Shown one piece after another: positions 11,675-48,240 of a stretch of DNA of 51,158 nucleotides. Position 1 is the first letter of the stretch, and each line of letters starts with the position of its first letter. The notes beneath the pieces are model-generated. The model searched no databases and was not told where the DNA came from. It worked only from the letters and a program-made list of their open reading frames with translations. Location: positions 1 through 51,158 of the IMG/VR virus record IMGVR_UViG_3300032294_001048. One strand, 5' to 3'. Origin of the DNA: a virus. Made by a program: the position numbers and the translations under genes.

Positions 11675-14521
11675 TCAGCGATAAACCGTGCGGAATTTGC
11701 CGAATGCTTCTTTCCAACCTTTGCTTTCAACTCTGTTGTTTTGATTGATCGCTTTGGTAACAGTAGTGCTGTCCAAGCCTAGTCTCTCCCTGCAAAGCGC
11801 AAGAAGCCCCATTCCTGCGTCTGCAATATCCGGCGACATGCCGTAAGATAACTTCATTTCAGACTTCGGCATTACTTTAATGCGCATGTTCAAGTCTTTA
11901 ACTCCGTGCTTATCAAGTTTACGCTGACACATTTCCTGCATCATGTCGCCTGAGATGCCTTTAATTTGTCCTGCTCGCATGTATTCCTTGAGCGAATACC
12001 ATATCTCGCTGACGGCGTTGACATACCTTTCGTGCGCCGGAGTCTGGTCGTATGCGGACACTGGCTTCTCTGAAGCTTTTCCGCCGAACTGAAGGCCAAA
12101 TACATCCTTACTCCACGCGATTGAGATAACGTCTCCTAGCGGCCCGCCTGCTCCAGACTTATCGTATCCTGCGTTCTTCGGCTGAACTCCACGCTTTACG
12201 CATTCGTCTCTAAACCAGCGAACAATCTGCTCGGTTCGGGTGGAGGACTGATCTGTAACATCCTCTGCGAATTTAAGGAACTCATCGTATTGCAGCCCTT
12301 TATATCCATAAGGTTCGATTAGCTTACCAACTGTTCCAAAGTAAAGAATCGCCCTATCTCCTCCGTTGGTAAACGAAGGATCGAGGAACGCGACCTTAAC
12401 AAGTTCGTTATCCAGCCAGATCGCTTTGTCTGTAGCCTTGGCGTTGATAATCTCAACCTCGCTGTAGATTTGATCTGTAACTCCAGCGGGGCACCAGAAC
12501 CCGCGATACATTCGCCAATACGAGGCTGTATTGCGTTCTGATACGGGAACCTTCTCTAGGTCTTCCGGCCCATCCATCCACGAATATACCTTCTTACCCT
12601 TCATCATATTCGGGTTCTTTAGTGTATCAAAATGGATGCATGTCCCACGCTCGGTCTCCCAATCGTCATCGTCTACAGAAATCGAATCCCATCCTGCTTT
12701 AGGCTTGGCGAACTTTCCGAACGCATCTACGTAAGACGCAGGGTTGGAGATACCGATAAACTGAAAGCGTTCGCAACCCTTGCTCAAGTTGTAGAATGCT
12801 ACTTCGGTAATCGCTTCGGATAGTTCTGAAAGCTCGTCCGCAACAAAGATAACGTTCTTTTGGTGGATACCCTGCATTTTTCCAGTGGCATCCTTTTCTT
12901 TCTTTTTTTCACCGGGGATAAGCGTGATACCAGCGAGATCGCCCTTGCTTGCCTTACCCTTGCCATCCACATAGCGAATCGTATTAAGAGAATCTACAAG
13001 CTTACCCGGCAATCCAAGCTGTTCGCAGATTTGCCAATACTTGACGATCTTACCCCAGATGCGCTGTTTGGATGCCTTGATCGTCGTAGAAGTAGCAAGG
13101 ACAATAGTATTCTCTGGATCAGCTAAGTAGTTGATAATAGCCCATATTGCATAAAATTCGCTGTTGTGTGTGACAGTAAAATCACCAAGAAGGAACCGTC
13201 CATTGCCGTCTAGTTGGAAACCAGACCAGTCGCCCTCCCCAAGCTGTTCAATCTTAAAAGATACAGTTTCCGACTTCGTTCTTTCTTTTGGCCTTGCAAC
13301 TTTCCTTAATGCGGGAATCTGCCAAACATCTCCCATAATGCTTATCCGGCATGCATCATGCAGTCCAAAGTTGCATTTAACTTTTCTTTGTTCTGTTACA
13401 ACGCGAAACCCAAGTGACCTTGCAAGAAACACGATATCTTTTGCAAGCTCTGGATACGAACAAGATATTTCGTATGCTGTTCCATTTGTGTATCCATCTG
13501 AATCAATCAACCCGGCGAGAAGTTCCAGCCTGTTTTTTCTGGAGTTAATAAGGTATTCTTTAAGAATTCTTTTTTTGCCGTATTGTTTATTTCTAACAAA
13601 TCCAGAAGAGTCTTTTACAAGCTGCAAGAACGCATTGTCTTTGCTCCTCGCATATTTTTTAGAAATCATCCAAGTGGGTGTGTCTTTCCCGTAGTATTCT
13701 TTTTTAACATCGTATCCATTCTTTGTGAAGTAATCGCAGATATAATTGTTAACAAGAGTCTCGTTGTCGCTGCTTGTGATGTGTGTTTTGCCAGTTGACC
13801 CATCACCTAGCCAAATGCCATAAGCCCTAGGCTCTATTGGAAGCGGCCTCTCATCCCACTCAACGCCCGTGCAAAACAATTTGAATTGTTCTTTGAACGT
13901 GTCGCTTTTCTTCAAATAGTCTTTTACAGAAATATCAATTGTATCTCCAACTCGTCTCCAACTTTTCTTTGGCCCCCAAGCCCTCTTAAGAGTTAAAATG
14001 TGATCGTCATTGCACTCCCAAGAATCACCTTTGGATGGGATAATGCGAACCATGTTTGATCTTCCGGGGTTTGTTGCCAAAACATTTCTCGGAGTTGAAT
14101 CGTCTCCCATCAACTGATCTCCAACAACAACGTCCTTCGCAAGCTTGATTGACCCGTCATACATTAGAACTGGCGTGTTTGGTGCAAGGCACTTGCCGAA
14201 GCCGCCCGAGCCAGCAATCGCAAGGTAGTCATACTTGCAAGAAGCCTCTAACATGCGAGTCGCCCAAGGGTGCCAGATAAAGTTGGCTGCTGCCTTACCT
14301 TCTTTCTCGGGCCAAAGCGCCCTAGCGATTGCAAGAAAGTGATCTGATGTTTTATGTCCTCCTGTATCTTCTGGAATCCTGCGAGTAATCTTTTCGCGGA
14401 ACATCGCTAGCTCAATAGCAAGATCGTGCGTTCCTTGCCGCCAGTTGAATCCGTATTTATATTTTCTCCCTTTGATCGGCTCGCCGTAAATAGGAGTGCT
14501 TGGGTCACCGTCTATATTCAT
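11675..14521 (-). CDS. terL: Terminase large subunit (TerL), intein-containing
   Basis: The precursor has 948 residues. Removing the 343-residue intein leaves about 605, a normal TerL length. The ATPase Walker A, G-S-G-G-F-G-K-S, is split by the intein between K110 and S454. Walker B is V-I-F-V-A-D-E, and an L-A-T-S-T segment follows the P-loop as expected. The C-terminal nuclease half shows F-L-D-P-S-F, a Y-D-K-S-G-A-G-G-P segment and a late D-I-A-D-A, consistent with the RNase H-like metal site. TerL powers DNA packaging and cuts concatemers. The ATG at 14521 is followed by an N-terminus rich in charged residues. The partner TerS gene is about 31 kb away on the other strand. Splicing is needed for function because the P-loop is otherwise interrupted. 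Confidence 0.93.
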   Translation of the reverse strand: MNIDGDPSTPIYGEPIKGRKYKYGFNWRQGTHDLAIELAMFREKITRRIPEDTGGHKTSDHFLAIARALWPEKEGKAAANFIWHPWATRMLEASCKYDYLAIAGSGGFGKCLAPNTPVLMYDGSIKLAKDVVVGDQLMGDDSTPRNVLATNPGRSNMVRIIPSKGDSWECNDDHILTLKRAWGPKKSWRRVGDTIDISVKDYLKKSDTFKEQFKLFCTGVEWDERPLPIEPRAYGIWLGDGSTGKTHITSSDNETLVNNYICDYFTKNGYDVKKEYYGKDTPTWMISKKYARSKDNAFLQLVKDSSGFVRNKQYGKKRILKEYLINSRKNRLELLAGLIDSDGYTNGTAYEISCSYPELAKDIVFLARSLGFRVVTEQRKVKCNFGLHDACRISIMGDVWQIPALRKVARPKERTKSETVSFKIEQLGEGDWSGFQLDGNGRFLLGDFTVTHNSEFYAIWAIINYLADPENTIVLATSTTIKASKQRIWGKIVKYWQICEQLGLPGKLVDSLNTIRYVDGKGKASKGDLAGITLIPGEKKKEKDATGKMQGIHQKNVIFVADELSELSEAITEVAFYNLSKGCERFQFIGISNPASYVDAFGKFAKPKAGWDSISVDDDDWETERGTCIHFDTLKNPNMMKGKKVYSWMDGPEDLEKVPVSERNTASYWRMYRGFWCPAGVTDQIYSEVEIINAKATDKAIWLDNELVKVAFLDPSFTNGGDRAILYFGTVGKLIEPYGYKGLQYDEFLKFAEDVTDQSSTRTEQIVRWFRDECVKRGVQPKNAGYDKSGAGGPLGDVISIAWSKDVFGLQFGGKASEKPVSAYDQTPAHERYVNAVSEIWYSLKEYMRAGQIKGISGDMMQEMCQRKLDKHGVKDLNMRIKVMPKSEMKLSYGMSPDIADAGMGLLALCRERLGLDSTTVTKAINQNNRVESKGWKEAFGKFRTVYR
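13163..14191 (-). mobile_element. Intein with LAGLIDADG homing endonuclease inserted in TerL P-loop
   Basis: Residues 111-453 of the TerL precursor form a class 1 intein. It starts with Cys (block A: C-L-A-P-N-T-P-V-L-M-Y-D-G), has a block B-like C-N-D-D-H-I-L, and ends with G-D-F-T-V-T-H-N followed by extein Ser. Two dodecapeptide motifs are present: A-Y-G-I-W-L-G-D-G (intein residues about 123-131) and L-L-A-G-L-I-D-S-D-G (about 224-233). The homing endonuclease therefore looks intact, with both acidic residues. All splice-junction residues (Cys1, penultimate His, terminal Asn, Ser+1) are present, so it should splice. Bases 13163-14191 mark the exact insertion. Confidence 0.93.
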
Positions 14522-20044: not shown

Positions 20045-20068
20045 TTTAGTGTTGTCATACTGATTGAA

Positions 20069-20101
20069 GGGCGCATCGTAAATGGTGCGCCTTTCTTTTT
20101 T
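20069..20101 (+). terminator. Rho-independent terminator after the scaffold gene
   Basis: GGGCGCA, a 7-base loop and TGCGCC form a GC-rich stem directly followed by TTTCTTTTTT. It would end transcripts from the upstream operon or reduce read-through into the capsid gene. Confidence 0.75.
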
Positions 20102-20339
20102 GTAAATAATCCTTGCATAACTTTAAATAATACATTACCCCTTGCGATGCAGGGTTGGATAACCTGTTGAAAAAGGTTCCACGGAGGCTGTGTTCCGCAA
20201 GCATAGTATAGACTAATTGTGAGCTTAAAAAAACCCGCAAGGGCTTCTCAAGTGGCTCGGAGGAGATAAGAGAAAATGCCGTTTCCGCAAATGCGGGAGG
20301 GGCGACTTACAATTAACAATCATTTAGAAAGATAAACAA
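20102..20339 (+). promoter_or_regulatory. Long structured leader of the capsid gene
   Basis: About 240 non-coding bases separate the terminator from the capsid start. Short stems are visible: GGTT/AACC near 20153, CCGCA/TGCGG near 20287-20298, and CGGA/TCCG. An A/T-rich stretch (TTGCAT at 20113, TAATAC at 20128, then CCCC) could hold a promoter, but the spacing is only 9 bases. AGAAAG lies 8 bases before the ATG. A leader of this length for the most expressed gene suggests stability or translation control. Confidence 0.5.
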
Positions 20340-21527
20340 ATGTCACAATACAATCTCGCTGATGTGAATCAGCAACTCCAGCAAGAAGCTGGTCGTATCG
20401 GAGAAATGATCTCCGCGAAACTTATCGGAACCGATGTGTGGAACCGCCTCATCAAGCAGGATACCTTCCCTGCCGGAATGGGTGAGTCCATCCAGACCCT
20501 TATCCAAGAGCGTTCGACTGTCGGAAACGTCAGTTCTACAGCTTGGGAAGACGTCGGAACCAACGACGGAACAGGCAATTCCTGTAACCCGACCCCGCAA
20601 ACCGTTGAGTTTGCCCGCACCCTCAAGAGCTACAACCTCCAGCAGTCGGCTATCCGTAGCCCCGGCTTCTGCGTCAACGACCTCCGCACTGCGTGGAAGG
20701 CCGAGGAGCAGTTGGCTGGTGAGGTTAAGGTTCTCAAAGAGAACAGCCAGTGGTTCTGGAGCAACCGTTACCGTGACGAGTTCATCCGTCTCTGCGGCAA
20801 CAAAGTTGTTACCGACGTGAACGACACGCTCGCCATGTCTGTCAGCGGTTCGGATCAGGCGTTCCCCGCCGTGGCCCCGACCTTCGCTCTCGACCAAGGT
20901 ATGCTCGACCAGTTCTATCTCGATCTGGCTCGTGATTCCGCCGAGGGGCATTACGCAATGGTTGACGGTGAGCCGCAATACGCGCTCATCTGCTCGCCTG
21001 AAACGTCGAACTACATTAAGAAGCAGAACTCTGACATCCGTCAAGACCTCCGCTTCTCCTCGCAGGTTGACGAGTTGATCAAGCCTTTCGGCGCTTCGTT
21101 CGCCTACTCTGGCTTCGTTCACATCGTTGATCGTCAGGCTCCTCGTTACAACTTCGTTAACGGGCAGTTTGTCCGCGTTCCGTTCTATGCGAACGCCGCA
21201 GCCACCACGGGCAGCAAAGCGGTTGTCAATCCGGCTTACCGCACCGCTCCTTACGAGGTTAGCGTTATCTACAACCCGCACGTCTTCACTTCGCGTGTTG
21301 CTCAGGTCATCACCAGCCCCGGTTCGGGACTGAAGTTCGATCCTGTCAACTATCGCGGTGAGTTCATCTGGATCAACAACAAGGACAACGTGAACAACAT
21401 CCTTGGCTTGACCGGATACTTCTACGCTCTGTTCATGCAGGGTTCTCAGCCGAAGCGTGTTGAGTGGGGTTATGCTATCATGCACCTCCGCTGCTCGCCC
21501 GCCACGATCTACCAGTCCTGCTCCTAA
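20340..21527 (+). CDS. Major capsid protein
   Basis: The 395-residue protein follows portal and scaffold and has strongly biased codon use, expected for the most abundant virion protein. It opens with a charged helix, includes W-F-W-S-N-R-Y-R-D-E-F, and ends in hydrophobic beta-rich segments (F-Y-A-L-F-M-Q-G). Length and order fit an HK97-fold capsid protein. No motif is diagnostic, but no other gene fits. An unusually long antisense open frame on the minus strand is explained by its codon bias. Confidence 0.85.
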   Translation: MSQYNLADVNQQLQQEAGRIGEMISAKLIGTDVWNRLIKQDTFPAGMGESIQTLIQERSTVGNVSSTAWEDVGTNDGTGNSCNPTPQTVEFARTLKSYNLQQSAIRSPGFCVNDLRTAWKAEEQLAGEVKVLKENSQWFWSNRYRDEFIRLCGNKVVTDVNDTLAMSVSGSDQAFPAVAPTFALDQGMLDQFYLDLARDSAEGHYAMVDGEPQYALICSPETSNYIKKQNSDIRQDLRFSSQVDELIKPFGASFAYSGFVHIVDRQAPRYNFVNGQFVRVPFYANAAATTGSKAVVNPAYRTAPYEVSVIYNPHVFTSRVAQVITSPGSGLKFDPVNYRGEFIWINNKDNVNNILGLTGYFYALFMQGSQPKRVEWGYAIMHLRCSPATIYQSCS

Positions 21528-21554
21528 GCAGTTGGTAGCGTAAGCTACGCTCAC

Positions 21555-21585
21555 GGTGCGGGGAGGTTCGATCCCTCCTCGCACC
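21555..21585 (+). ncRNA. tRNA acceptor/T-arm minihelix
   Basis: GGTGCGGGGAGG pairs with CCTCCTCGCACC over 12 bp (one G-T wobble) around a 7-base loop TTCGATC, which matches the tRNA T-loop consensus TTCRANY. This is exactly a 7-bp acceptor stacked on a 5-bp T stem. A D-loop-like AGTTGGTA lies just upstream (near 21530). No 5' acceptor or anticodon arm completes a full tRNA. It sits 27 bases after the capsid stop and 24 before the next ATG. It may be an RNA-processing signal or a tRNA remnant. Confidence 0.6.
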
Positions 21586-21609
21586 TTAACTAAAGAAAGA
21601 TCGAACAAT

Positions 21610-21933
21610 ATGAAAAACGAAGGCAAAGGCGGAATGGCTGTTATTATCGGTATGGGCAAACCCGAGAAAGAGGGCGTCGAGTTCGATGCTCCAGAAGGAT
21701 TCGATTACTCCGATATGAAAGAAGGCGAGGAGAAAGAGGTTCTCGCTAAAGTTTGTTACTGCGGAGATGGAGAGTTCACCCTTGTTTCAATCGACGGGTA
21801 TCCTCTTGTTAAAGAAGAAGAGGAAGAGATGGAAGAAGAGGAGATGCCCGAGGGTGAAATGGAAGAGGAAGAGTCCGTAGAAGAGGAAGTGCCGTTCCAA
21901 GAGCGTCTACGTCAACGCGCAGGAATTGCTTGA
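21610..21933 (+). CDS. Small acidic head/neck protein
   Basis: This 107-residue protein starts with ATG 21610 and contains a Gly-rich N-terminus, a C-Y-C-G-D-G segment, and a very acidic run of Glu from residue about 70 to 95 (E-E-E-E-M-E-E-E-E-M-P). Acidic proteins here often decorate or stabilise the capsid or connector. The call is by location only. Confidence 0.6.
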   Translation: MKNEGKGGMAVIIGMGKPEKEGVEFDAPEGFDYSDMKEGEEKEVLAKVCYCGDGEFTLVSIDGYPLVKEEEEEMEEEEMPEGEMEEEESVEEEVPFQERLRQRAGIA

Positions 21934-23972: not shown

Positions 23973-24344
23973 GTGCCTACAACGATCAAATTAAAACGGT
24001 CAAGCGTCTCGGGGCGAGTCCCTGAGGCGCAAGACCTCACCGCTGGGGAGCTTGCGATCAATCTAACGGATCGCAGGCTCTACAGCAAAGACGAATCGGG
24101 CGAAGTATTTCGGCTGGCTAGACCACGTGATCCTTCGCTTTATTTGTTTCTATCCGCCACCAGTTCAGACGGATTGGAACTTTATATCGGGCGGCTTGCT
24201 TGGGAAGATTATCCCGAAAGCAATCCGGAGGATTCAAATGACTGGACAATTTACAAAACAGAAATAAACTCTGCGGGAGAAGTTGTTTCAGACGGGAGTG
24301 CTACAGGTGCTTGGTCTGACAGAGAAACGCTAACTTATACATAA
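23973..24344 (+). CDS. Fibre N-terminal-type protein, 123 aa
   Basis: GTG 23973 is the start. Residues 1-35 (T-I-K-L-K-R-S, L-T-A-G-E-L-A-I-N) match the head of the preceding fibre and resemble phage-fibre attachment modules. The rest is a short beta-rich domain with Y-L-F-L-S-A-T-S and W-T-I-Y-K-T, similar to the C-terminus of the gene at 27191. It may attach or cap a fibre. Confidence 0.6.
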   Translation: MPTTIKLKRSSVSGRVPEAQDLTAGELAINLTDRRLYSKDESGEVFRLARPRDPSLYLFLSATSSDGLELYIGRLAWEDYPESNPEDSNDWTIYKTEINSAGEVVSDGSATGAWSDRETLTYT

Positions 24345-47534: not shown

Positions 47535-47557
47535 GGCGAGGGGATCGAACCCCCGCC
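47535..47557 (-). ncRNA. T-loop-like hairpin
   Basis: On the minus strand GGCGGGGG pairs with CCCTCGCC (8 bp, one wobble) around TTCGATC, the same 7-base T-loop as at 21555. It lies 7 bases after the stop at 47565 and 29 bases before ATG 47505. No 5' half of a tRNA is found. Confidence 0.5.
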
Positions 47558-47564
47558 TAAAGGT

Positions 47565-47729
47565 TTATCGGGAATTCTCCAAGCGGGTTATCTTAGTTTT
47601 AATGGAACGGATTTTAGCCTGTTGCGCTACAAGCTCCGTCCATGCCCATGTTCGGCGGGCGGACATTTGAGCGTTTAGGTCGTTGAGCTTCACGCGCAAG
47701 GCGTGCAGTTGGTTTTCGTTTGTTTTCAT
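47565..47729 (-). CDS. Small helical protein, 54 aa
   Basis: ATG 47729. Charged helix pattern (V-K-L-N-D-L-N-A-Q-M) and basic C-terminus (K-T-K-I-T-R-L). No family. Confidence 0.5.
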   Translation of the reverse strand: MKTNENQLHALRVKLNDLNAQMSARRTWAWTELVAQQAKIRSIKTKITRLENSR

Positions 47730-48240
47730 ATCACCGGATAGCGTAGCAAAGCGCGTGCCAACCTCGCACAAGGCAATCGCAAGGTGCAAAATCAACGACT
47801 TAAGCCATGTTTTTGCACAGCATCTCCCATGCCAAGATGCAAGCCCCGCAAACGCAACACCTTTCCGAAATGGCAATTTCTTCCGGTAGGCAGGATTTAC
47901 CCGGCAAAGGTTGCCGCTTTCCGTGCAATTCTTGCCCTGCCTTTTGCAAAGCGCGGTGAATGTGCATCTTGCGGAAATGCGCAGCATCTATCGTGCCAAC
48001 ATTCGCACGGGTGACTCCCTCCTGTGATATCAGGCCAGCATTCGCATTGCCCTTTGCTTTGCGTTAAACGCCCCGCATTCTCGCCGGAATTCTCCCTGCT
48101 GTGCTACCCCTTGCCAATCGGCAAACGCAATCCTACGCCAACCTCGCGCATTGTTCAGCTATCGACTATAGATAATTATATCATGTTATTATGTAGCGCG
48201 GCACAGCATCAACGGGTTAGGCAAGCGCGCCCCATCGCAT
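47730..48240. other. Non-coding stretch, left half
   Basis: No protein-like frame was found. A GCCA(A/G)CATTCGCA word occurs at 47995 and 48034, and an A/T-rich island (48164-48195) contains a TATAAT on the minus strand (48180-48175) without a good -35. Otherwise nothing recognisable. Confidence 0.4.

Follow-up and report, generated by a model that had tools for sequence, protein, structure and literature searches.

The probable major capsid gene of the viral DNA examined here is followed by a 12-bp hairpin with a seven-nucleotide loop, TTCGATC, that resembles the T-loop of tRNA. The analysed stretch, referred to as the window, comprises the 51,158 nucleotides of the IMG/VR record IMGVR_UViG_3300032294_001048. 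The hairpin is found behind the same gene in every relative in which the junction is present, its two strands co-vary, and its loop is nearly invariant in the lineages that lack a U-tract behind the stem. It probably acts as an RNA element of the sense strand, located at the capsid cistron's 3′ end, as a stabiliser of the message or as a weak terminator.

The features of the window are collected in Table 1. The 5′ arm GGTGCGGGGAGG (21555-21566) and the 3′ arm CCTCCTCGCACC (21574-21585) form 12 pairs, one of which is G-U, and RNAfold applied to positions 21510-21620 returns this hairpin with a z score of -4.19 relative to 200 shuffles. The sequence and the fold thus bear out the stem and loop described in the first-pass annotation, and their placement between the probable capsid gene and the next gene is confirmed by the TAA at 21525-21527 and the ATG at 21610. 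The window holds 8 stems of at least 12 bp against a shuffled mean of 1.7, and such stems alone are not rare; a fully paired 12-bp stem with TTCRANY as its loop is present at a single site of the window and in none of 60 dinucleotide shuffles. The label of the upstream gene is probably correct, judging from gene order and extreme conservation; its protein matched no PHROGs or Pfam family, and a fold prediction with a pLDDT of 28.7 gave no usable fold identity. Both genes are preceded by AGAAAGAT-like starts (20325-20339 and 21590-21609) without a clear Shine-Dalgarno sequence, which may be a pointer to the host group.

Table 1. Coordinates of the features described in the window
Feature	Position	Strand	Basis
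Canonical intrinsic terminator, 13-bp stem followed by TTTTTT	20066..20095	+	Terminator scan; relatives; precedes the capsid leader
Structured capsid mRNA leader, conserved, pseudoknot-like	20110..20339	+	Alignments; pairing in 23/23 rows
Probable major capsid gene, 395 aa	20340..21527	+	50 relatives of 83-100% identity in IMG/VR; synteny with a portal-like gene
D-loop-like AGTTGGTA	21530..21537	+	Present in 10/48 junctions; not conserved
12-bp hairpin with T-arm-like loop TTCGATC (loop 21567-21573)	21555..21585	+	Sequence, fold, covariation, 48/48 junctions
GATCGAAC, complementary over 8 nt to the hairpin's GTTCGATC (21566-21573)	21599..21606	+	Sequence; by eye, in the window's clade only
Next gene, small acidic protein	21610..21933	+	ORF; ATG 24 nt past the stem; protein start conserved in relatives
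Second T-arm-like hairpin, 8 bp, loop TTCGATC	47535..47557	-	Directly behind the minus-strand ORF 47565-47987; R1 match with E 0.08

A search of IMG/VR with the capsid protein gave 50 loci, 47 of which keep the junction and, together with the window, make up the 48 rows compared here. The hairpin stands 13-27 nt past the capsid stop codon in all 48 junctions, so that the lack of conservation in relatives, which the first-pass annotation had named as refuting its proposal, is not seen. Hairpin energies in the family lie at about -20 to -27 kcal/mol. The stem is not of fixed length, with 11 bp in 5 rows, 12 bp in 13, 13 bp in 18 and 14 bp in 12. The loop is TTCTATC in 19 rows, TTCGATC in 15, TTCTAAC and GATAAAAA in 4 each and ATTGA in 3, while TCAT, CGAAAA and TTATATC occur in a single row each. 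The pattern GUUCNANNC matches the loop in 38 of the 48 rows.

The two strands of the stem change together across capsids of 84-98% identity. Among 11 aligned hairpins, 8 of them distinct, two-sided changes were seen in 7 of the 12 pairs, and 99% of the paired cells are complementary compared to 84.8% in shuffles; the covariation score was reached by none of 500 shuffles, and slid controls fail. When the arms of 13 hairpins were swapped, only 10 of 156 combinations retained full pairing. G-U occurs 11 times in the 161 pair cells and A-C never, which indicates a structure maintained in RNA with the sense of the capsid gene. Searched with a covariance model, all 17 virus records of the capsid family had their best match at the hairpin, and there was no match in the Saccharibacteria genome that carries a distant relative of the capsid. 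In this relative (L107, 5672-7500; 26% identity), whose contig is titled as a Saccharibacteria MAG, the gene is preceded by a U-tract terminator and a TTGACA box and directly followed by the hairpin GGGGGTA-GCAA-TACCCCC.

In the window, the hairpin has the GC-rich stem-loop of an intrinsic terminator, but the U-tract directly 3′ of the stem is absent, with TTAACTAAAG in its place, and the hairpin is not among the sites returned by the terminator scan. A run of at least five T near the stem is present in 13 of the 48 rows and missing in the other 35. In a tree built from 43 capsid genes (the 48 less identical ones), the 12 rows with such a run 3′ of the stem cluster as a single clade and require one change. 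In the 31 tree rows without the U-tract, the seven loop sites account for 3 changes (0.43 per site). The corresponding rate is 1.5-1.75 changes per site for the stem arms and 2.46 for third codon positions, and random draws of seven third positions were as quiet as the loop in about one of 10,000 (resampling P about 0.0001). In the 12 U-tract rows, by contrast, the loop shows 2.86 changes per site against 1.11 at third positions. Likewise, GUUCNANNC fits 30 of the 31 rows without the U-tract and 3 of the 12 with it. The contrast between loop and U-tract is large, and a single transition on the tree lies behind the whole of it; an independent-pairs test on the same tree yields 1 pair. Upstream of the capsid leader, a U-tract terminator was found in 29 of 45 rows by a strict perfect-stem script, several of whose misses are stems hidden by a mismatch or an internal T-run and others of which show none. 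Since many capsid genes have such a terminator before the leader, the host machinery appears to use U-tracts.

A hairpin that is terminator-like in one clade and loop-conserved without a U-tract in the others is most simply read as an element of the 3′ end. It would end or protect the capsid message, as a barrier to 3′-5′ exonucleases, as a weak terminator or as both, and the capsid mRNA would thereby outlast or outnumber the genes behind it. The clade with the U-tract would carry an ordinary intrinsic terminator at this position, and the other lineages, including the window, would have kept the T-arm-like UUCNAUC instead. Most likely, this loop folds into a compact T-loop or serves as a protein-binding site, in which case stabilising or pausing would be achieved in another way. 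Intrinsic (Rho-independent) terminators are well known behind phage capsid genes, such as Tphi behind gene 10 of T7. These terminators share with the present hairpin a GC-rich stem-loop directly behind the capsid gene and, in one clade, the U-tract; they differ in that the window and the majority of its relatives conserve the loop in its stead. REP-type stem-loops are 3′ stabilisers of bacterial mRNA. Here too a strong stem ends a presumably abundant message, but the seven-nucleotide loop is conserved, there is no repeat family and the effect on the mRNA is a predicted one; for terminator hairpins, a reporter study links strong ones to a higher abundance of the upstream transcript (PMC11696848).

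The hairpin could also be a plain degenerate intrinsic terminator whose likeness to a T-arm is due to chance and shared ancestry. The G-rich 5′ arm and the presence of a U-tract version at the same place in 13 of the 48 rows agree with this, but it is only in rows lacking the U-tract that the loop has hardly changed, and the same loop recurs in a further family of capsid genes and at a second location; such an origin is considered rather unlikely. An effect on translation of the next gene appears very doubtful. Here the loop would pair with the ribosome-binding region of that gene, where GATCGAAC stands just 5′ of the ATG, and would throttle its translation. All 8 nucleotides are complementary, and GATCGAA is kept in the window's clade while the neighbouring bases vary. 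By eye, however, the pairing is absent elsewhere among the clades with a conserved loop, and one locus (L049) that has the identical loop also lacks it. It was ruled out as a family-wide rule, the window's clade alone showing it.

The likeness to tRNA was examined from several sides. With the tRNA T-arm the hairpin shares the closing G-C pair, U54, U55, C56, A58, a pyrimidine at position 60 and the length of the loop; it differs in having U57 in most relatives, no D-loop partner, anticodon arm or CCA, and a stem of 11-15 bp. Position 57 is the variable site of the loop, T or G in the capsid family and A in a second family described below, whereas real T-loops have a purine there according to PMC7912444; the commonest loop of the relatives, TTCTATC, has U57. 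The window loop with its G-C closing pair fits the T-loop pattern TTCRANY. ARAGORN found no tRNA genes in the window or in the loci L001-L008. Rfam returned no family for the junction with the hairpin at the gathering score and, at E values up to 10, a single unrelated sub-threshold match (E 3).

The first-pass annotation had seen in the hairpin the 7+5 bp top half of a tRNA, with a D-loop-like sequence upstream, and had suggested either a degraded tRNA or a signal through which the capsid mRNA is processed. The 7+5 bp geometry holds for the window itself; it is lost in the relatives, where stems range from 11 to 14 bp, and AGTTGGTA, though present upstream as described, is specific to some lineages. 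Since the length of the stem varies and AGTTGGTA is found in so few junctions, the tRNA ruler is not conserved, and an exact 7+5 bp ruler was ruled out. The variable stem argues against recognition by the ruler enzymes RNase P, RNase Z and the CCA-adding enzyme, no CCA was found directly 3′ of the stem in the junctions shown, and there is no D arm or D-loop, the upstream bases folding otherwise. A processing signal for one of these three enzymes, to which the exact 7+5 bp stem and T-loop of the window would be suited, is therefore highly improbable; of the proposed processing of capsid mRNA, a role at the end of the message stays plausible. That the hairpin descends from a tRNA, degraded or captured, or is an integration site derived from a tRNA 3′ end has next to no probability and was ruled out. 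The T-loop, the acceptor-like stem and the tRNA genes that family members carry at other places in related records would speak for such an origin. Both strands of the stem nevertheless change together while the loop stays, no D arm, anticodon arm or CCA is conserved, and T-arm-like hairpins occur at unrelated sites.

A role for enzymes that read the T-arm is also unlikely. The hairpin would then be a T-arm mimic, a substrate or binding site of host TruB (Psi55), TrmA or TrmFO (m5U54), and its modification or binding would stabilise the loop or the mRNA. TruB and TrmA are named as candidate readers because a T-arm suffices for them (PMC7912444). In that account, TruB accepts a 17-base T-arm of the sequence 53-GUUYRANYC-61, TrmA needs only a 5-bp stem, which may be prolonged, with a seven-base T-loop, and T-arm enzymes are indifferent to the length of the stem, the feature that differs among the relatives here. 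Judged by its letters, the window hairpin conforms to this consensus, with a seven-nucleotide loop and a stem of at least 5 bp, as do substrates of TruB, Pus4 and TRUB1, mRNA hairpins among them; its modification, with pseudouridine expected at the U55 equivalent (21568), is a candidate one. Psi has also been mapped in GUPsiC loops of bacterial mRNA (PMC13236023). The fit of GUUCNANNC to 38 of the 48 rows, with position 57 as the variable one, is in keeping with a T-arm mimic. However, GUUYRANYC fits only 15 of the 48 rows, as most relatives miss R57, one row without the U-tract has TTATATC, and RluA rather than TruB is reported in PMC11421799 as the major Psi synthase of E. coli mRNA.

Similar hairpins are found elsewhere. 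In a scan of 14 records that is independent of gene calls, hairpins with a GUUCNANNC loop and a stem of 8 bp or more greatly exceed the number in shuffles (0.33 per set). The stem of the second hairpin of the window (Table 1) is kept in a relative (L220, 14809-14831), with the loop TTCTATC and other flanking genes. Both copies of this 8-bp stem are flanked by two collinear blocks with different genes in between, which looks as though a gene cassette had been swapped next to the hairpin.

IMG/VR was scanned with patterns for two stem sequences and with one permuted loop as a control. Of the 5 matches to a 17-mer taken from the TTCTATC form, 1 belongs to the capsid family, 2 have no hairpin and 2 belong to another type of phage. 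In this second family, a gene for a major head protein (phrog_1328, E 1.7e-55) without similarity to the window capsid (E 2.9) precedes a 149-aa gene, directly behind which stands a 14-bp TTCTATC hairpin. The 22 close relatives whose sequence reaches far enough past the capsid gene have TTCTATC in 17, TTCAATC in 1, TTCAAAT in 1, other loops in 2 and no hairpin in 1; the loops TAAA and CTTAAAAA were found in close relatives. More distant members have hairpins with GCAA or GCGA (GNRA), TTCG (UUCG) or a U-tract near the same place.

The 16-mer GGGGGTTCTATCCCCC gave 21 matches in IMG/VR, 12 with stems of 9-15 bp and 9 with stems of 4-6 bp; a permuted-loop control gave 4, none with a stem over 5 bp. 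All 12 long-stem matches sit 8-25 nt behind a stop codon, 4 in the capsid family, 7 in a third group and 1 behind a RecT gene. The third group is putatively one of head genes, as gene order suggests; PHROGs names none of the three of its proteins tested. Its presumed capsid aligns with that of the window at 29% over 110 aa (E 7e-6) and could be remotely related to it, which means that not all recurrences are independent. In one record (L280, ~2880-2910), a 9-bp TTCTATC hairpin lies between RecT-like and RecE-like exonuclease genes, and the motif is thus not limited to head genes. Further strong hairpins stand at gene ends in the related phages L210-L216, several without a U-tract and with loops unlike the T-arm; the T-arm-like loop is therefore not needed at every site.

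Other parts of the window also hold structured elements. The leader of the capsid mRNA had no Rfam match, and a scan for its pattern recovered 26 contigs, each belonging to the window's capsid family. Its GAGC/GCTC stem is present in 23 of 23 rows, and a pseudoknot helix, paired in every one of them, co-varies through CTTCTC/GAGGAG, TCTTTG/CAAAGA, CTTTTAC/GTAAAAG and CTTATAC/GTATAGG. The MAFFT alignment of the leader is partly out of register (P3 is in register in 7 of 23 rows), and only P6 was recounted per row. The leader may be more novel than the hairpin. Two strong hairpins of 11 and 13 bp lie close together at 24004-24081, near a possible 123-aa ORF. A 948-aa terminase- or helicase-like ORF on the minus strand (11675-14521) contains a Hint domain and a homing endonuclease, that is, an intein.

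No report of hairpins of this kind was found in the open-access literature. A broader proposal, quite speculative at present, is that several groups of uncultured phages end their genes, head genes above all, with free-standing T-arm mimics that host T-arm enzymes bind or modify (Psi55, m5U54), marking and stabilising the 3′ ends of mRNA in place of a U-tract. If T-arm enzymes read the loop, phage mRNA would be a natural substrate of tRNA-modifying enzymes. If the loop really replaces the U-tract, these phages would possess a second means of forming or protecting the 3′ ends of mRNA at their most expressed genes.
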